A stretch of 40,826 nt of DNA from Planctomycetota bacterium (GTDB taxonomy: Bacteria > Planctomycetota > Planctomycetia > Planctomycetales > Planctomycetaceae), in contig JAFEBR010000295.1 in NCBI GenBank assembly GCA_018242565.1, positions 1 through 40,826 on the forward strand. The letters are read 5' to 3'. Positions 315 to 40,541 of the stretch are shown here, in pieces (the first letter of the stretch is position 1; the number at the start of each line of letters is the position of its first letter). The position numbers were made by a program, and so were the translations under genes. The notes under the pieces were generated by a model, which did no database searches, was not told the DNA's origin, and was given only the letters and a program-made list of their open reading frames with translations.

Positions 315-3300
315 ATGGAGTCGACCGGAAAGCCTGCAGGCGACATCGCCCTGCGCGTGTCGACTCACCAATGGTGGCGGGCCGTCTATTTTTTTTGTGT
401 CGGGCTGTTATTCCAGTCGGCACAGTTCCACGTTTGTGCTGACGAAGGCCTCGACGCCTACCGGCTGGCGGTCGGTTTCTACAACAAAGACGAATGGAAA
501 CTGGCGGCCGACAACTTTCAGGCCTTTCTGAAAAATCACAGTCAGCACAAAAAGGCAGAAAACGCCCGGTTCTATTACGGTCTCACGCTGGTCAAGCTGG
601 ATGACTTCAAGACCGCCCGCACCGTGTTGCGCAATTTCATGCGCGATTACCCCAAGAGCAACGACATCACTGCGGCGCTGTATTGGGCTGGGCACTGCAG
701 CTACTTTCTCGACGACTACCCGGATGCGGAAAAAGAACTGACCCGATTCGTCGCGGCCGCTCCCGAAGACCCTCTGTGCGAATGGGCGCTCCCCTACCTG
801 GCGGATGCCGAGTTGCGATTGAAGAAACCCGAAGTGGCCGCGCGCCATTTTCGGCAGGCGCTCGATGCCTATCCCAAAGGAGAAATGACCGACGACGCGA
901 AGTTTGGTCTGGCACGCTGCTATGAACAATTACAGAAAACTCCCGAAGCCCTGCAGGCTTATCGCGAGTTGGCCGCGAATACCGCCAGCCCACGCGCCCC
1001 CGAGGCATTGCTGAGCCTGGGAGACCTTTACTTCGACACGCAAGACTACGCCGCTGCCGCGACAGCGTTTGCCGAGTTCGAAACGAAATTCTCAACCAGC
1101 CCGCAGATGCCTCAGGCACAGTTCAACCATGGATCAGCCCTGTTTCAGTTGAAGGATTATGCCCAGGCCGTCGTCGCATTTGACAAAGCGGCCCGTGCCG
1201 AAAAACTCGCCGCCGAGGCTCTGTTCTGGAAAGGACTGGCACAAAAGTCGTTGCCCGATCTCGATCAGGCGGTCTCCACGCTACAAGCCGCTTACGAACA
1301 GCATCGCGAGCATCCATTCGCTGAGAAGCTGCTGTTTCAATGGGCCCAGTGCGAAGATCGCCGGGGCCAGCGCGACCACGCCCGCGAACTCTATGTGTCG
1401 CTGGTGAATCGCTGGCCCAAAGGCGCCCTGGCGCAAGAGAGCCTGCACGCGGCCACCGTCGCGGCGGTCGATCTCGGCAAGATTTCAGAGGCTGATGCCC
1501 TCCTCGCGAAATTCGATAAAGACTATGCCAGCAGTCCATTGCGACTGCGGCACGACATTCTGCGGGCCCGCCTGCAGATGGCGCGCACTCCTAAGGACTA
1601 CGCTGGTGCCGTCAAGATCCTGCAGGGAGTGATCGCTGCCACAGAAAAAGAGGGGACCCGGCAACAGGCCCGTTATTACCTGTCCGTCGCCCTGCAGAAT
1701 CTCGGGCAGCATTCGCAAGTCCTCGAAGTCAGCGAACCTTTGTCACGGCAAGTCGCCAGCGACCACGCTATGGCTGACTATGCCGGTGTATTCGTGATCC
1801 GGGCCGAATCTCAACGCGCCCTGGCCCGGACCGCCGCCGCGACAGCCAAGCCCGCCGAGTCACCTCCAGCTGAAGTCATGTATCTGGCGGCCGAAGCGGT
1901 CGCCTCGGTAAAGAAATACCTGGAACTGGCACCACAAGGTGCGCTCGTCGCACAGGCCTTGGCCGTTGGTTCGATGACCGAAGGTCTGGCCGCCCGGAAG
2001 GAACCGGCGCTGCAGTTCCTCGATGCGCTGCAGAAAACATCTCCGGAGTCCCCAGAACTGGAACGGACGTTACTCGAACTGGGACGTCTCGCGTATGCCC
2101 GGGAAGATTATGAACTGGCTGAAAAGCTTTACGGCGATCTGGCCAGTCGGCCCAAATCATCGCTGCACGCGGAAGCGCTGGCGGATCTGGGCTGGTCCTT
2201 GCATCGCCAGCGCAAGTTCATCGAGGCTGCCTTTGCCTTCGGACGTCTGCTCAAAGAACATCCCGACGACAAATTGGTTCCGGAGGCAGCGTTCCAGCGT
2301 GGCATTTCATTGCATGACGCCGGCCAGATCGAACAGGCGCAGACTGCGTTCGCCGAGGCGGCTCAACTGACGGGCGACTCGAAAGAGATCTTTCTGGCAG
2401 GCTGGCAGTCGGCCCGCCTGCTGGGACGTCTGAAAAAGACCACCGAAGCCGATACGGCCTTCGCCAATTTGCGAAAACGATTCCCGAAAGCCCCCGATGG
2501 CGACAAGATTCTCAACGAATGGGCGACTCTCCATTATGATGTCGAGAATTACACACGCGGCGATGATATTTTGCGTCGCCTGATCGTCGAGTATCCGAAC
2601 AGCCCACTCGCAGGCCATGCCCGCTTGAGTCTTGCCGAAAGTGACCTCATCGCCGGCAAGATCGACCAGGCGCGCACGCAGTTTCTGGCAATCGCCTCGG
2701 CCAATGCTCCAGCCGGTACGGCCGGCGCCACCCTGCCCGACGCCAAACAGGTCGAACAGGCTCGAATTCTCCAGCAACGCGCGCTGCATCAACTGGTGCA
2801 GATCGAACTCAGTGCCCACCGCTGGAACGAAGTTCGCAAATACGCGGCAGAGTCGGCCCAGCGTTTCCCGGATGGCAATTTTCGCCTGGAAAACCAACTG
2901 GCGCTGGCTGAGGCCGATTTTCAATCGGGCGACCTGAAAGCCGCTTCCGAACGACTGCAACAACTCAAATCCGAAAAAGAGAGTCCCGAGGCCCGACAAG
3001 CGAAAGCCTTTCCCCAAATCTGGGTGCTGCAGGCCGAAATCGCCTGGCGGCAGAAAGACTACGACGCCGTGACGGCCACGGTTACAGAATTTCGCGAATG
3101 GGATCCGAAGTCTCCCCTCTTGTATCAGGCACAGGAAGTTCTGGGGCGGTCCCTCAAATCGCAGGCGAAGTTCCCCGAAGCACGGGCCGAACTGCAACGG
3201 GTGCTGGACGATCCCTTCGCCAAAGACACCGAAACCGCCGCCAAGAGCCTGTTCCTGATCGCCGACACGTATCGACTCGAGATGAACTACAAGGCCGCGT

Positions 3301-3515
3301 ACGAGAACTTCCTGAAGGTGGATGTCCTCTACAAGTTTCCTGACCTGCAGGCACCTGCTTTGTACCAGGCGGGTGTCTGCCAGGAAGAACTCCAGGATTG
3401 GAAAAAAGCCGCGCGCTCGTATGACGACATGCTGCAGAGATTCCCCAACAGCGAGCACGCACCCAAGGCTCGCGAACGACTCGCCATCGTGCGCAAACGG
3501 ATTGCCACGGGATGA
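315..3515 (+). CDS. Large secreted tetratricopeptide-repeat protein
   Basis: This 1066-residue protein consists almost entirely of TPR-like helical pairs, with many units of the type AxxxFxxxLxxxPxxxxAxxALYxxG. Such arrays are protein-protein scaffolds; the spacing recalls the BamD/YfiO and CpoB/YbgF type, which act in the periplasm on outer-membrane assembly or the Tol system. Residues 21-40 form a hydrophobic stretch after a basic/polar start and end near CADE, so an exported protein is likely. The ATG at 315 is supported by a GAGGGAGG site with good spacing. It is followed after 58 bases by an ExbB-like gene, then an ExbD-like gene and a TonB/TolA-like membrane protein, so it probably works with that proton-driven complex in the envelope. 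That partnership is inferred from position. The repeat type is clear; the exact role is unknown. Confidence 0.88.
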   Translation: MESTGKPAGDIALRVSTHQWWRAVYFFCVGLLFQSAQFHVCADEGLDAYRLAVGFYNKDEWKLAADNFQAFLKNHSQHKKAENARFYYGLTLVKLDDFKTARTVLRNFMRDYPKSNDITAALYWAGHCSYFLDDYPDAEKELTRFVAAAPEDPLCEWALPYLADAELRLKKPEVAARHFRQALDAYPKGEMTDDAKFGLARCYEQLQKTPEALQAYRELAANTASPRAPEALLSLGDLYFDTQDYAAAATAFAEFETKFSTSPQMPQAQFNHGSALFQLKDYAQAVVAFDKAARAEKLAAEALFWKGLAQKSLPDLDQAVSTLQAAYEQHREHPFAEKLLFQWAQCEDRRGQRDHARELYVSLVNRWPKGALAQESLHAATVAAVDLGKISEADALLAKFDKDYASSPLRLRHDILRARLQMARTPKDYAGAVKILQGVIAATEKEGTRQQARYYLSVALQNLGQHSQVLEVSEPLSRQVASDHAMADYAGVFVIRAESQRALARTAAATAKPAESPPAEVMYLAAEAVASVKKYLELAPQGALVAQALAVGSMTEGLAARKEPALQFLDALQKTSPESPELERTLLELGRLAYAREDYELAEKLYGDLASRPKSSLHAEALADLGWSLHRQRKFIEAAFAFGRLLKEHPDDKLVPEAAFQRGISLHDAGQIEQAQTAFAEAAQLTGDSKEIFLAGWQSARLLGRLKKTTEADTAFANLRKRFPKAPDGDKILNEWATLHYDVENYTRGDDILRRLIVEYPNSPLAGHARLSLAESDLIAGKIDQARTQFLAIASANAPAGTAGATLPDAKQVEQARILQQRALHQLVQIELSAHRWNEVRKYAAESAQRFPDGNFRLENQLALAEADFQSGDLKAASERLQQLKSEKESPEARQAKAFPQIWVLQAEIAWRQKDYDAVTATVTEFREWDPKSPLLYQAQEVLGRSLKSQAKFPEARAELQRVLDDPFAKDTETAAKSLFLIADTYRLEMNYKAAYENFLKVDVLYKFPDLQAPALYQAGVCQEELQDWKKAARSYDDMLQRFPNSEHAPKARERLAIVRKRIATG

Positions 3516-3573
3516 ATTCCTATCGGCCATCGAATGCTGGCCGCACGGTGACGGATAACCAGAAAGTCGGATT

Positions 3574-4497
3574 ATGAAAACCCGAACCTCTGCGCTCACC
3601 CAACTCGGGGGACGCGTGCTGCTGCTGGCGCTGGTCTTTGCGGGCTGGGCCCTGTTGCGTCCGGTGGCTGCCCAGGACGAGACGGGCAATGTGGACGCGA
3701 AATCTGTGCTCGATGACGGGCCCGATGAACCTGCTCGGGCCACCTCAGGCGAAGCTGCTGACAAACAACCGGGGAAAAAACGTCGCGGCATCCCCACGCG
3801 GTTGTCCGAGATCTTCATCGCGGGGGGACCGATGATGTGGCCCCTCGCGGCCTGCTCGGTCGTCGTGCTGATGTTCACCATTGAACGACTTGTCGTGCTG
3901 CGACGTCGCCGTGTGATTCCGCATGATTTTGTGACCCGCTTTCTAGAACACGTGCAGAGCGGCCAGATCGACCGCTCGGGCGCTCTGGCACTGTGCGAAC
4001 AGAATGCCAGTCCCATCGCAGAAGTGTTTGCCCACGGCGTCCGCAAATGGGGGAAACCCAGCGTCGAAGTCGAACAGGCCATCATTGACGGTGGCGAACG
4101 CCAGATCAGTATCCTGCGGCGCAACCTGCGTGCCCTCAATACCGTGGCCACCGTCGGCCCCCTGATGGGACTGCTCGGTACCGTCTACGGCATGATCAAA
4201 TGTTTTAATGAATTCACCCGCACCACCACCGCGGCCGACAAACTGGATAACCTGTCGATCGGCATCGGCGAAGCGCTCATTGCTACCGCCGGCGGACTGT
4301 GCGTCGCGATTCCGGCCCTGGTGCTTTACATGTATCTGGCCGGTCGAGTGGATGGCCTGGTCATCGAAATGGACGTACTCGCGCAGAAACTCGTCAACCT
4401 GATTTCTGCCGAAAACCTCTCACCTCCAACTGACGAATTACCCCGTATCTCCCAACGCCCCAAAACGCTGGGGACAGGCGCTTTGAAAAACTCCTGA
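3574..4497 (+). CDS. MotA/TolQ/ExbB-family proton channel protein
   Basis: The 307-residue product belongs to the family that forms the pentameric proton channel of ExbBD, TolQR and MotAB complexes. Membrane helices are visible at about 86-108, 187-210 and 231-256; the second carries the typical GPLMGLLGTVYGMI run and the third the GEALIATAGGLCVAIPAL run. The protein also has an N-terminal signal-like stretch (residues 12-33, ending AAQ) and an exposed linker to about residue 75, an extension absent from E. coli ExbB but seen in some other bacteria. The ExbD-like partner follows after 139 bases and a TonB/TolA-like gene after that. The large cytoplasmic loop (about 110-185) is of normal length. 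Assignment to the family is certain; whether it is nearer ExbB or TolQ cannot be told by eye. Confidence 0.93.
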   Translation: MKTRTSALTQLGGRVLLLALVFAGWALLRPVAAQDETGNVDAKSVLDDGPDEPARATSGEAADKQPGKKRRGIPTRLSEIFIAGGPMMWPLAACSVVVLMFTIERLVVLRRRRVIPHDFVTRFLEHVQSGQIDRSGALALCEQNASPIAEVFAHGVRKWGKPSVEVEQAIIDGGERQISILRRNLRALNTVATVGPLMGLLGTVYGMIKCFNEFTRTTTAADKLDNLSIGIGEALIATAGGLCVAIPALVLYMYLAGRVDGLVIEMDVLAQKLVNLISAENLSPPTDELPRISQRPKTLGTGALKNS

Positions 4498-35015: not shown

Positions 35016-36035
35016 TTAACGGTCGGCGGCAGTGGGCAAACGGCCGAAGATCATCCGGCCAGCGCTCGACTGCAACACGCTCTTCACCACGACGTCTGAC
35101 TCTTTGCCGATCATTGAAGCTCCGTCTTCACAGACGAGCATCGTGCCGTCATCGAGATAGCCCACGCCCTGCCCCGGCGCTTCACCGGCCTTGATGATCT
35201 TGATCGTCAGCCGTTCGCCTGGCAGGTACCGGGGTTTCAGCGAATTGGCCAGATCGTTCAGGTTTATGACGTCGACACCCTGCACACTGGCCACTTTGTT
35301 CAGGTTGAAGTCATTGGTGACGACGCAACCGCCGAGCTTTTTCGCCAGTTCGACCAACCGCTGATCGACCGACATCCCCTTGCCGTCTTCCTGCCGCACG
35401 TCGTGCAGTTTCACATCGCTCCGCGGATTCGACTGCAGCCGACTCAACACATCCAGGCCTCGGCGACCGCGATTACGCCGCAATTTGTCGTTGCTGTCGG
35501 CGATGTCCTGCAGTTCCTGCAGTACGAACGACGGCACAATCAACGGCGAGTCGATGATCTTGGTTTCGATCACATCGGCAATCCGCCCATCAATGATCGA
35601 GCTGGTATCGAGCACGTACGGACGTCCCCCGCGGACTTCTTTTGCGAATTCAATGTAGGGGATGATGAACCGGAATTTATCTTTCGTCTGGAGCAACATT
35701 GTTACACACAGATACGGAAAGATCAGGTTCATCAGCATGAGCGAGACCCCCTTGTATTCTGCAAAAATCACAGGTTGCAGAGCCGTGTAGGTCAGATAGC
35801 TCAACAGAAATCCGATCAGCAGCCCGAAGTACACGGCCGAAATGACATCAATCCGTTTTTTCGGAATGATGATGTCAATGAAAATCACCGACGACGAAAT
35901 GAACAGCAGAACGAAGAACGCCAGTAAGGGGCGTGCCCCCAGCGCGGCGGGAGCCACGGAATCGGTGCTGACGTAGGCGGCAATCGCCCCTGCGCAGACC
36001 ACCATATAAATTGCTCGAATAATATTCAGCAGCAT
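35016..36035 (-). CDS. Membrane-anchored PIN-TRAM domain protein (YacL-like)
   Basis: The 339-residue product has four membrane helices in the first 120 residues (about 5-22, 37-57, 63-85, 95-116). A PIN nuclease-type domain follows (about 138-262) with the acidic residues Asp143 in VLDTSSIIDGR, Glu174, Asp224 and Asp242 in VTNDFNLNK, then a TRAM domain (about 272-330, GERLTIKIIKAGEAPGQGVGYLDDGTMLV). This is the YacL layout found in Firmicutes and many other bacteria; PIN domains often cut RNA and TRAM domains bind RNA, so an RNA role at the membrane is likely but unproven. The frame is open 33 codons further upstream, but the ATG at 36035 begins immediately before the first helix and is chosen. 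It follows a HIT gene. Confidence 0.9.
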   Translation of the reverse strand: MLLNIIRAIYMVVCAGAIAAYVSTDSVAPAALGARPLLAFFVLLFISSSVIFIDIIIPKKRIDVISAVYFGLLIGFLLSYLTYTALQPVIFAEYKGVSLMLMNLIFPYLCVTMLLQTKDKFRFIIPYIEFAKEVRGGRPYVLDTSSIIDGRIADVIETKIIDSPLIVPSFVLQELQDIADSNDKLRRNRGRRGLDVLSRLQSNPRSDVKLHDVRQEDGKGMSVDQRLVELAKKLGGCVVTNDFNLNKVASVQGVDVINLNDLANSLKPRYLPGERLTIKIIKAGEAPGQGVGYLDDGTMLVCEDGASMIGKESDVVVKSVLQSSAGRMIFGRLPTAADR

Positions 36036-36201
36036 ACTCGGCCTGATTCGCAATAACGAAACGGAACCGCTGGCTCGGGCTCCGGTACGTAAGAACCGCA
36101 GTCGAGGAGCGCCTTCGACCAGCACCCTCGACACCAGAAGCCCAGGGACTCCGCAACGAACACCGGTCGGCGGTCTATTCTTCTGTGTTTACAGGGAGGA
36201 A

Positions 36202-36696
36202 TCAAGTCTGTGGACCGATCAACACCTGCCGCAAGGCTTCCAACGACTGTGGAATCACATCCACCCCCGCCAGAACCGGCATGAAATTGGTATCTCCTGT
36301 CCACCGGGGAACCAGATGCCAGTGTAGATGGCCGGGCACCCCCGCGCCCGCAATGCGGCCCAGATTGACCCCCACATTAAAACCCTCGGCTGACATCCGC
36401 TCCCGAATCTTCTGAATCAATTCCTGCAGCGAATGCATGCATTCCAGCAGTTCTTCGTCGTCGAGATCTTCCAGATGCGCCTTGTGCTCCAAGGGCGAAA
36501 CCAGCAGATGCCCATTGTTGTAAGGGAACCGATTCAGCACGGTGAATGTCCGCTTGCCCCGCGAAATCACCAGGTTCTCGGCATCATGCGCCGGGTCTGC
36601 CGCGTATCGGCACAAAAAGCACCCAGCCGGAGGCTGTTCCTTGCTCGTGGTAATATATGACAGACGCCAGGGCGCCCAGATTGTATCGTGCAGCAC
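36202..36696 (-). CDS. HIT-family nucleotide hydrolase/phosphorylase-like protein
   Basis: The 164-residue protein has the histidine-triad motif GHLHWHLVPRW (His123, His125, His127), in which the middle-to-last histidine forms the nucleotidyl intermediate. Other family signs are Cys26-x-x-Cys29 with later histidines as a probable zinc site, and YNNGHLLVSP. Relatives split Ap4A-type dinucleotides or act as nucleotidyl hydrolases, probably scavenging signalling or by-product nucleotides. The start is a GTG at 36696 with GAGAG six bases upstream. The gene follows the Cys-cluster gene after 25 bases and is probably co-transcribed with it. Confidence 0.91.
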   Translation of the reverse strand: MLHDTIWAPWRLSYITTSKEQPPAGCFLCRYAADPAHDAENLVISRGKRTFTVLNRFPYNNGHLLVSPLEHKAHLEDLDDEELLECMHSLQELIQKIRERMSAEGFNVGVNLGRIAGAGVPGHLHWHLVPRWTGDTNFMPVLAGVDVIPQSLEALRQVLIGPQT

Positions 36697-36721: not shown

Positions 36722-37987
36722 TTAACGGCCGTACCAGGCCGTCAGTCGACTGATGTCCTGGGTTTGTGCCAGCATGCGGACTCGCGCTCGAAAGTTCAAT
36801 TGTCCGAACGCCGGGGAATAGCCGTGATGGTGGTCGGCGATATTCAGCGCCCGCGTCACGTCATCAAGCGTCAACTGCCGGCGTCCGGCGCCGACGGCCA
36901 GCCAGCGGGCCAGAAACAACACCACCGGAATGACCAGCGCCAGACTCTGAAAACCTTCCACAACCGGCACATCATAGTAGGCGCGCCCGCAGAAATGCAG
37001 CGACTGGATTTTCACGCGGAGGTAACGGATCAGGAGTTCGTCAACTGCGGCAGGCAGAGGTCCGAAGGCCGGCTCCAACTCAGTAAACGGCACAGGAACA
37101 AACGCCGGCTGCAAAGGGGGTGCCAGACCCATTCCGCGGGTGAATCGCACTGCCGCTCGAAATAGTCGCCAGCGATTGGCCCAGCCCAGCTCACAATCAG
37201 CCAGCGTGTCACGCCGAGCGTACTGTGCACATTGCAGTCGAAACTGCATCCGGCCCACGGCACTGGGTTCCGGCTGCTCAGGCAGTGCCGCAGCTTCACT
37301 CGCTGCTGCCCCCGCCACAATCTCCAGAAACTCCCGTAACCGGGGCCCGCGGATTTTGTCGAACCGCGCCTGCCCGAGCAGTTCCACAAACGCCAGAGCC
37401 TGGATCACCCGCGGTACGATGCCCCCAGTCCCCTCGGCGATCTGCCGTTCGAGGGACGCCACGATCTGCAGAGTTTCCGACCAATCGAGCGATTGCCCCG
37501 GAGTAACAGGCGGAGGCACCATCTCCGCGGCACTCTCGGGCACGACCAGACGCTCCAGAACCTTGAGTTCGTGGCGCTGCTCCGAAACAGGACGGCCCCG
37601 ATTCCCGGCCACCGACGGACAACTGAATCGCAACCCGACCGTAATTTTCTTGCCGGCGGGGTGAAAGGCGTACGGATAAATCCGGCACGCCAGCGGTTTG
37701 GCCTCTTCACCGAATTTAGCATGGATCCGGCAGTAGCCTTGTTCATCCAGAAACACACAGGCGCCGTTCGGCTGGTGCCCTAAACGGTAACGCCGCGACC
37801 ACGGCCACCAGCCCAGACGCACCAACCACGGTCGGCCGCGGGACACTTCAGCATCCGTCTCCCAATGCTGCTCGACAATCCGCTGACGCTCGGCCTCGGT
37901 GATCTCAATGAGATGCTGCTGGCAACAGCCACCACAGTTGTGGCAACTCCAGTTTTGAATCGTCGGCAATTCCAGGGGAGGAGGCAT
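36722..37987 (-). CDS. Cys-cluster protein of the YkgJ/FliB type
   Basis: The 421-residue product opens with NWSCHNCGGCC (Cys15, 18, 21, 22), then carries NGACVFLDEQGYCRIHAKFG and PLACRIYPYAF, the set of cysteines seen in the YkgJ family and in flagellin lysine N-methylase (FliB). These are thought to bind an iron-sulfur cluster or zinc. The rest (about 150-421) is a helical domain without motifs I recognise, and near the end lie hydrophobic stretches. No flagellar gene is nearby, so methylation of flagellin cannot be inferred. Two in-frame ATGs (37996 and 37987) are possible starts; the second has GGAA nine bases upstream. The open frame extends to 38035 without support. Confidence 0.75.
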   Translation of the reverse strand: MPPPLELPTIQNWSCHNCGGCCQQHLIEITEAERQRIVEQHWETDAEVSRGRPWLVRLGWWPWSRRYRLGHQPNGACVFLDEQGYCRIHAKFGEEAKPLACRIYPYAFHPAGKKITVGLRFSCPSVAGNRGRPVSEQRHELKVLERLVVPESAAEMVPPPVTPGQSLDWSETLQIVASLERQIAEGTGGIVPRVIQALAFVELLGQARFDKIRGPRLREFLEIVAGAAASEAAALPEQPEPSAVGRMQFRLQCAQYARRDTLADCELGWANRWRLFRAAVRFTRGMGLAPPLQPAFVPVPFTELEPAFGPLPAAVDELLIRYLRVKIQSLHFCGRAYYDVPVVEGFQSLALVIPVVLFLARWLAVGAGRRQLTLDDVTRALNIADHHHGYSPAFGQLNFRARVRMLAQTQDISRLTAWYGR

Positions 37988-38114
37988 CGCACGCATTTCC
38001 GCATTAGGACCGCACGGGAATCGCCGGGGTCGCACCAGCCAACCGCTGCGACCTCATTCCCTGCAGCCGATGTTTATGTCAGCACGTCAGGCATCTGCGT
38101 GCTGGCCGCCGCGT

Positions 38115-40541
38115 TTAACGACATCCCACAGACACCCGCTCCAGATACTGATCGACAAGGTCGGCACCTGCAATGATCTGCGTCCCGATTTCAATCGCCC
38201 ACAGCGGCCGGTTGCCGATCGTGGACCGCGGTATTTTCACCAGATCTTTCTGCGTGCAGAGCACAATCTCACCCGCCGAGCGACCGGCCCAGTGATCGAG
38301 AGCCTCCAGGTCGGCAGCCGAATACCGATGATGATCGGGATACTCGCGCATATCCGGAATCTCAAATCCCAACCCAGCCAGCGTCTGACGGAAAGCCTGC
38401 GGATTGCCGATTCCACAGAATGCCGTCACGGCACGCCTGCGGCACTCGTCCAGAGCACACGTGCCCCCTGCGGAATTCACCAGGCGCGTCACGGGAAACT
38501 GCACCTCGGCGACTGCGCACCCCGGGTGTATCTCGGCGATCGTTTGCCGGATTCTTTCGACTTCACCGCGGGGCACCAGATCGACCCGCGTGATCAGCAC
38601 GAGTCCTGCTCGACGCAGCGACACGACGGGTTCGCGCAACAGTCCCCGAGGCAGCAACTGCCCGAAACCCCACGGATTCGTCGCATCGACCAAAACCACG
38701 TCGAGGTCTCGCGCGAGTCGTCGGTGCTGAAAACCGTCATCGAGAATCACAAGTTGTGCCCCGTTTGACTCCGCGGCCTGACGTGCTGCCGCCACCCGGT
38801 CCGGGTTTTGCAAATGAGGCACCTCTGGGCATTGCGCCTGCAGAACCAGCGCCTCGTCATTGACGGTATCGGCGGACGCACCATATCCCCGACTGACAAA
38901 AGCCACTGCGATCTGTCGTTGACGGAACCAGCGCCCTAGCCAGGCTGTCACCGGAGTCTTCCCCGTGCCTCCGGCCGTGAGATTCCCGACACTGACCACC
39001 GGCACCGGACTCCGCAGAATCGTCGCTCGCCCCGCGTCGTACTTCCGGTTCCGGGTATTCACGACCAGTCCATACGGATACGACAGACACCGTAACAGCC
39101 CGCGCGGGATCGCCGTCACCCACCCCGGCCACCGCGACGCAGGCGAAATGATCTGCCAGTACCAACGACCAGCGGCGGCTTTGGAATTCCACACGGCAAA
39201 TGCGACACAACCACTGAGCAAGACCCCGCCAGCAATCATTAACACGTCGGCCTTCGCCGTGGCCAGCAGAAAGATCCAGCCGATTAAGGCCAACAGACTG
39301 GGCAGCGGATACAGCCACATCCGAAACGGCAGGGGAATGTCGGGGCGAGTTTTGCGCAACAGGTGCAGCGCCACAATCTGGCCGATGAACTGCACGAGAA
39401 TTCTCACGATCACCGCTGCGTCGATGACTTCCTGCAGCGGCAGGTAACAAAACAGTGCCGTCAATAACCCCAACCAGACCAGCGAGGCGATCGGAAACCG
39501 CCGCACCGGGTGGACAATCGCAAACAGCCCGAAGAAATTTCCGTTGCGGGCGGCCGCATACGGAATGCGTGAATACCCCAGCGTCATCGAGAACACACAG
39601 GCGATGACCGTCCAGAGAATGAGCACCGTGAACACCTCGGCCACGCCCCGACCGAACAGAATCTCCATGAACTCCGAGGCCACGAACTTCGATTCCATGG
39701 CCCGCTGCCAGGGAACGACGCCGATGATCGCCAGGTTCATGGTCAGATAGATCCCGGCCACGACGACAACCGAAATCATCACGGCTCGCGGAATCGTCTT
39801 GCCCGGGTTCACGACTTCGTCACCCAGGTGACAGATGTTGTAATACCCGAGGTAATCGTAGATGGCGATTGTCATGGCGCCACCCAGCCCCCCCCAAAAG
39901 GCCTGGTTCCCCTGCATTCGGAAGGCATCCGCCGGAAACTGCACCAGATCGACCTGGAAGTTCGCATAGCCCGCCACGATCACCGTCAAGACCGTCACCA
40001 GGGTCCCCGTACACAGCACAAGTCCCAGCCAGCCCAGGGCTCGAATGTGCAGACACAACGAGAGCGCCACCAGAATTGCCGCGGCCGCGGCCAGCGATCG
40101 ATGGCCTCCGGGAATGCCCCACTCCGACAGGGCCGCGTCGAGATGGGGAAACGGATACGCCAGGTATTCGATCCCCCCGATGTAGCCCGACGCCAGTTCC
40201 AACGTTCCGCTCACCAGGAATTGCCAGATGAACAGAAAGGGCACAATCCGCCCGAAGCGCATTCGTCCGAAGATCTCAGACAGAAAATGATACGACCCGC
40301 CGCTGCCCGGCAAGGCGGCCCCCAGTTCGCTCCAGACAAGCCCGTCGCAGAGCACCAGTCCGGCGGCGATCACCCACGCCACCAGCGCCTGCGGACCATG
40401 CATCGCCGCGAGAAACCCCGGAATCGTAATGAACGGGCCGATCCCGACCATGTTCGTAACATTGAGAGCGGTGGCCTGCCAGACTCCCAGGCCCCGATGC
40501 AGTGTCTGGGCCTGAGACGCAGAGGTGGGGTCGGACGACAT
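38115..40541 (-). CDS. APC-type permease fused to tetraacyldisaccharide 4'-kinase (LpxK)
   Basis: One 808-residue open frame holds two proteins. Residues 1-455 are an amino acid-polyamine-organocation-type permease: GLGVWQATALNVTNMVGIGPF opens helix 1, about 12 hydrophobic segments follow, and NPGKTIPRAV marks the loop after helix 6. Residues about 465-808 are LpxK, which adds the 4' phosphate to the lipid A precursor: an amphipathic N-terminal part with LSYPYGLVVNTRNRKYDAG, VGNLTAGGTGKTP (P-loop, 519-530) and DDGFQHRRL (601-609). Length and motifs show a complete LpxK. No stop lies between them; the junction is near 39120-39165. An internal GTG at 39119 could give separate LpxK. No ribosome site is seen before 40541. 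The DinB-like gene upstream ends with its own terminator, so this is likely the first gene of its operon. Confidence 0.88.
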   Translation of the reverse strand: MSSDPTSASQAQTLHRGLGVWQATALNVTNMVGIGPFITIPGFLAAMHGPQALVAWVIAAGLVLCDGLVWSELGAALPGSGGSYHFLSEIFGRMRFGRIVPFLFIWQFLVSGTLELASGYIGGIEYLAYPFPHLDAALSEWGIPGGHRSLAAAAAILVALSLCLHIRALGWLGLVLCTGTLVTVLTVIVAGYANFQVDLVQFPADAFRMQGNQAFWGGLGGAMTIAIYDYLGYYNICHLGDEVVNPGKTIPRAVMISVVVVAGIYLTMNLAIIGVVPWQRAMESKFVASEFMEILFGRGVAEVFTVLILWTVIACVFSMTLGYSRIPYAAARNGNFFGLFAIVHPVRRFPIASLVWLGLLTALFCYLPLQEVIDAAVIVRILVQFIGQIVALHLLRKTRPDIPLPFRMWLYPLPSLLALIGWIFLLATAKADVLMIAGGVLLSGCVAFAVWNSKAAAGRWYWQIISPASRWPGWVTAIPRGLLRCLSYPYGLVVNTRNRKYDAGRATILRSPVPVVSVGNLTAGGTGKTPVTAWLGRWFRQRQIAVAFVSRGYGASADTVNDEALVLQAQCPEVPHLQNPDRVAAARQAAESNGAQLVILDDGFQHRRLARDLDVVLVDATNPWGFGQLLPRGLLREPVVSLRRAGLVLITRVDLVPRGEVERIRQTIAEIHPGCAVAEVQFPVTRLVNSAGGTCALDECRRRAVTAFCGIGNPQAFRQTLAGLGFEIPDMREYPDHHRYSAADLEALDHWAGRSAGEIVLCTQKDLVKIPRSTIGNRPLWAIEIGTQIIAGADLVDQYLERVSVGCR

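Follow-up and report, generated by a model that had tools for sequence, protein, structure and literature searches.

A natural fusion of an APC-type permease and the lipid A kinase LpxK in a small clade of planctomycetes

LpxK is a kinase that adds a phosphate to lipid A, by which lipopolysaccharide is anchored in the outer membrane. In the window analysed here (the whole stretch of 40,826 nucleotides, taken from the 9.3 Mb draft genome G000 of an uncultured Planctomycetota bacterium; 1252 contigs, 97% complete), this kinase and an APC-type permease are encoded in a single frame that opens with ATG and contains no internal stop. The features of the locus, all located on the minus strand, are listed below from the whole gene to its parts.

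38115..40541, minus strand: whole fused gene, APC permease and LpxK (808 codons; same architecture in loci L002, L031, and L032)
39189..40541, minus strand: permease part, LAT/APC type, 12 transmembrane (TM) helices (residues 1-451; Pfam AA_permease_2; Foldseek BasC/LAT/ApcT)
40419-40445, minus strand: TM1 motif GIGPFITIP, inside the permease part
39123..39188, minus strand: junction (residues 452-473; end of the TM12 helix, linker 459-471, and LpxK start remnant)
39144-39164, minus strand: LpxK start remnant WYWQIIS (aligned with the standalone LpxK N-terminus FLDLISG)
38118..39164, minus strand: LpxK part including its N-terminal segment (residues 460-808; Pfam LpxK, TIGR00682; Foldseek 4ehy, E 3.8e-19)
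39036..39122, minus strand: predicted LpxK N-terminal amphipathic helix (residues 474-502; AF2 helix; hydrophobic moment 0.69)
38952..38972, minus strand: P-loop GGTGKTP, in which K528/T529 correspond to A. aeolicus K51/T52 (alignment with 4EHX)
38841..38861, minus strand: NDEALVL, in which D-E correspond to A. aeolicus D99/E100 (alignment with 4EHX)
38721..38741, minus strand: Walker B and lipid-site motif DDGFQHR (D138, D139, H143; alignment with 4EHX)
38322..38342, minus strand: YPDHHRY, whose PDHH has its first His at the position of A. aeolicus H261 (alignment with 4EHX)

Profile searches recognised both parts of the frame. Residues 18-427 matched AA_permease_2 (PF13520) in Pfam with an E-value of 3.1e-38 and 132.3 bits against a cut-off of 27, and residues 482-795 matched LpxK (PF02606) with an E-value of 2e-77 and 260.9 bits against a cut-off of 27, covering model positions 4-319 of 328. 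The LpxK part also scored 185.5 bits with the NCBIfam model TIGR00682 (lpxK), whose curated cut-off is 91.95, and every NCBIfam permease model scored under its cut-off with the permease part. A PDB sequence search aligned the first ~460 residues with LAT/CAT-type permeases and residues 482-770 with A. aeolicus LpxK. Pfam and the motifs, and NCBIfam for the LpxK part, agree with a preliminary description of this DNA, which had read the frame as a 12-helix permease joined to a full LpxK with its P-loop and DDGFQHRRL motif in frame. The match is the sole LpxK match in the window genome, which also contains one LpxC and one LpxB.

The residues known to be catalytic in LpxK (K51, T52, D99, E100, D138, D139, and H261 in A. 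aeolicus numbering; PMC6286764) are all identical in the alignment with 4EHX. Of the lipid-binding residues, R72, R119, and H143 are conserved; opposite E117 stands a Pro, and planctomycete LpxKs show no invariant residue in that segment (consensus xxDR). With the A. aeolicus enzyme (4EHX/4ITL/4LKV), the fused LpxK has in common the full fold, the P-loop, Walker B, the D99/E100 and H261 equivalents, the R72/R119/H143 lipid-site residues, and the N-terminal amphipathic segment. LpxK works on the cytoplasmic side of the inner membrane, has its lipid site on the same face, and binds the membrane by an amphipathic helix that the A. aeolicus enzyme needs for activity (PMC6286764). The LpxKs known so far are separate proteins bound peripherally to the membrane, whereas the fused LpxK lacks its own start and is attached to a 12-TM permease. 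From its sequence, we infer that the fused protein has LpxK activity.

An AlphaFold (AF2) model built from a 24-row alignment predicts both folds, with a mean pLDDT of 86.5, a pTM of 0.63, and pLDDT values under 50 only at the N-terminus and in the linker 459-471. TM12 is predicted as helix 431-465 and is followed by the low-confidence linker, helix 474-502, and the LpxK fold; at a pTM of 0.63, the mutual placement of the two domains is not fixed by the model. In Foldseek searches with this model, A. aeolicus LpxK (4ehy) and the permeases BasC, LAT, and ApcT were retrieved, BasC with a TM-score of 0.86 by target length. The junction, earlier placed around 39120-39180, was found at 39123-39188. 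Standalone permease orthologues elsewhere are ~440-490 codons long and end 10-30 residues after TM12, whereas the fused permease continues into LpxK. The typical start of a standalone planctomycete LpxK lies ~61 residues ahead of GNLT, in a segment resembling M..xxFLDLISGRRRG, and the fused proteins retain this segment from about its fifth residue, right after the permease tail (WYWQIISP, RFDEIASG, EWYREIISG, and AAFDGLVSG in the four proteins described below). The fused LpxK has thus lost hardly anything beyond its start.

We searched 170 genomes of the same family for LpxK, which is present in 161 of them. Permease and LpxK share one frame in four genomes from two genera: the window genome, its congener G001 (L002, 824 aa if counted from the earliest possible start), and two members of another genus, g71, namely G129 (L031, 819 aa) and G130 (L032, 797 aa, cut by the contig end). 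Each has a single LpxK match. Compared with the window, the permease parts of G001, G129, and G130 are 82, 70, and 66% identical and the LpxK parts 59, 50, and 56% identical, respectively. The records of these three genomes (JACQFH01, from groundwater; SIAF01, from Lake Baikal; and JAGVKR01) are independent assemblies, and the junction is present in each of them. The preliminary description had allowed that a stop codon might be missing in the window genome only; it is missing in two genera, and the genes are separate elsewhere. The permease-LpxK fusion is thus a real and conserved architecture. Downstream of the fused gene, a CxxCxxCC-domain gene is found in the window genome and G001 and a TatD-like gene in G129; because the neighbourhood differs between the genus of the window (g1) and g71, the surroundings have changed while the fusion was kept.

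The CxxCxxCC-domain (PF03692) gene encodes ~435 aa, lies at window positions 36722-38035 (minus strand) and at 2535-3833 (plus strand) of L002, and is absent in G129. Further downstream in the window, genes at 35016-36134 and 36202-36696 (both minus strand) encode a PIN-domain protein with a hydrophobic N-terminal part and a HIT-family protein, both ordinary. LpxK frames of 524-618 codons were also encountered in G008, G047, G119, and G145, but no permease was seen upstream on reading; these frames and one in G002 are chance open frames, in which ordinary LpxK N-termini follow filler-like sequence. A long open frame by itself is weak evidence of fusion in such genomes. Two separate LpxK profile matches each were observed in several genomes of genus g34, including G168, G170, and G172. 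At G034:C58:75867-76970, both matches (profile positions 4-81 and 93-325) lie in one 396-codon frame, as would be expected if this lineage had acquired an insertion near profile position 85. In G151, a second LpxK (C930:10427-11377) scores 337 bits, far above any other in the family, while the normal LpxK lies on another contig; the second may be either an acquired copy or contamination.

Rough dN/dS estimates, with dS near saturation, are ~0.1-0.24 for the permease and ~0.15-0.28 for LpxK, indicating that both domains are constrained and that the permease is still under purifying selection. For the linker and the LpxK N-terminal segment, the equally rough values, again with dS near saturation, are ~0.4-0.8. 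All six pairs of fused proteins, which are not independent of one another, diverge above the unfused trend in the LpxK N-terminal segment (z 1.0-3.0), and some standalone LpxK N-terminal segments are equally far from their consensus. These values are only suggestive of relaxed constraint on an amphipathic anchor that may matter less once the enzyme is tethered. The fast evolution of this region is also consistent with cleavage there or with a tether that is dispensable.

A likely origin of the fusion can be read from a related genus, g75. In its four genomes, lpxK is immediately preceded by the orthologous permease gene, which is in a different frame, and the permease stop and lpxK start codons overlap as ATGA (G186 and G187) or ATGCTGA (G185 and G188). 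The overlaps are located at L071 2165, L073 7592, L074 5903, and on the reverse strand of L033. Among 110 permease loci examined, lpxK lies downstream of the permease only in g1, g71, and g75, and in the outgroup genomes G103 and G032 the two genes are unlinked. In an RpoB tree, the four fused genomes form one clade (SH-aLRT 99) that is sister to g75 (98 for the whole clade), with G103 and G032 placed just outside. The simplest history is therefore one in which unlinked genes became an overlapping pair and then, once, a fusion, and we regard this history as likely and well supported. The gene trees are weaker and compatible with the RpoB history: in the permease tree, the fused and three tandem members group together (89/93) while the partial permease of G187 is placed elsewhere, and in the LpxK-only tree no single fused clade is resolved and none is rejected (p-AU 0.113 for one clade). 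The g75 pair can serve as a natural model of how translation may be coupled before two genes fuse. The partial G187 permease (L033 2705-3676) groups with the permease of another family (86/93) and not with its own genus, perhaps because of gene replacement or a short-sequence effect.

The preliminary description knew of no such protein, and we likewise found none described in the literature searched, in which coverage of subscription journals was thin. The architecture is apparently undescribed while being built from known families. LAT/APC permeases such as BasC (6F2G) and GkApcT (5OQT; PF13520) share with the fused permease the 12-TM APC (LeuT-like) fold over its whole length, and standalone orthologues belonging to the same family, class, and phylum exist. 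The nearest precedent found is LplT-Aas, a lysophospholipid flippase and an acyltransferase that are bicistronic in many bacteria and form one open reading frame in some (PMC11416262); it also pairs a transporter with a membrane lipid enzyme and follows the same operon-to-fusion path. However, LplT transports the lipid substrate of Aas, whereas the amino-acid-type permease described here has no evident link to lipid A. Within the lipid A pathway, a waaA-lpxK gene cluster and an lpxC/fabZ fusion are known (PMC3087551), in which lpx-pathway genes are clustered or fused as in permease-LpxK, but there the partners are enzymes that act in lipid A or fatty-acid metabolism and not a permease.

We consider it probable that the locus is a composite gene for one bifunctional inner-membrane protein, which arose via an overlapping gene pair and in which LpxK is permanently tethered. 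In an ancestor within this Planctomycetaceae-like family, a LAT/APC-type permease gene would have been placed directly upstream of lpxK, giving an overlapping and probably translationally coupled cistron pair of the kind still present in g75. In the common ancestor of two sister genera, the permease would then have lost its stop and lpxK its start, and the two frames would have become one. The resulting single polypeptide would insert its permease with the C-terminus in the cytoplasm, and TM12 would lead through a short flexible linker to a complete LpxK whose amphipathic helix rests on the membrane. The C-terminus of APC permeases is cytoplasmic; since LpxK acts at the cytoplasmic face, the fusion would place it where it is normally active. 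There, on the inner leaflet, the tethered enzyme would add a phosphate to the lipid A disaccharide at its 4'-position. The main effect is probably obligatory 1:1 production and co-localisation of the sole LpxK with the permease, together with permanent tethering of LpxK to the inner membrane. The earlier proposal that fusion anchors LpxK is sound in this sense, but LpxK is already membrane-bound by its amphipathic helix, which is retained here.

It is possible, although we hold it only tentatively, that the fusion is nearly neutral, a frame-joining mutation having been tolerated because both activities face the same side of the membrane, with one polypeptide formed at no gain. One small indel could suffice to fuse an overlapping pair such as the existing intermediate, the fusion occurs in a single small clade only, and the linker region evolves fast. 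However, no stop has interrupted the frame in any of the four genomes, although their LpxKs are 50-60% identical and the neighbourhood has changed, and although a stop and a start could easily re-form. Near-neutrality is compatible with all data and differs from the composite, tethered protein proposed above only in whether tethering helps the cell.

That two proteins are still made, with LpxK translated from a start inside the frame or released by proteolytic cleavage of the linker, seems unlikely. Each gene individually has possible start codons near the junction, and the linker is predicted to be flexible. However, a codon-by-codon comparison found no ATG, GTG, or TTG position common to all four fused genes within residues 425-512. 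The internal start suspected earlier at 39119 did not hold up either, as this GTG is private to the window genome (ACC, ATC, and GGA in the other three) and starting there would cut into the LpxK N-terminus. In the lack of a common internal start codon, one polypeptide is the best reading of the fused gene.

Functional coupling, which the preliminary description had raised as a possibility, appears improbable. Either the occupancy or transport state of the permease could alter LpxK activity, or the transported solute or proton flux could feed or sense lipid A synthesis; in both cases, phosphorylation of lipid A would follow nutrient state. The support for such coupling is circumstantial: the permease is physically joined to the sole LpxK, this link persists in two genera, and in LplT-Aas, which some bacteria encode as a fusion, transporter and lipid enzyme are functionally coupled (PMC11416262). 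Conversely, the low-confidence linker, variable in length and sequence among the fused proteins, argues against a rigid allosteric connection, and standalone permease orthologues lack a nearby lpxK outside g75. Their neighbours (cytochrome b, serpin, DUF1501, ABC-2 permease, and glutathionylspermidine synthase) form no pattern that hints at a substrate. Moreover, LAT/APC permeases carry amino acids and have no known role in lipid A. It is quite doubtful that the permease acts as a sensor or gate whose transport state controls the sole LpxK, such that amino-acid supply sets lipid A phosphorylation and, through it, outer-membrane growth; if true, this gating would give the Raetz pathway a new point of control. 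Finally, an assembly or sequencing artefact, or a stop missing in the window genome only, might be suspected in so fragmented a draft but is ruled out by the same junction in three independent assemblies.

That a sole LpxK occurs naturally fused to a permease suggests that permanent attachment to an integral membrane protein does not keep the enzyme from working. For structural studies of LpxK at the membrane, the fused protein is a single-chain construct that nature has already made. The passage from unlinked through overlapping to fused genes within one family documents the formation of a gene fusion with unusual completeness.
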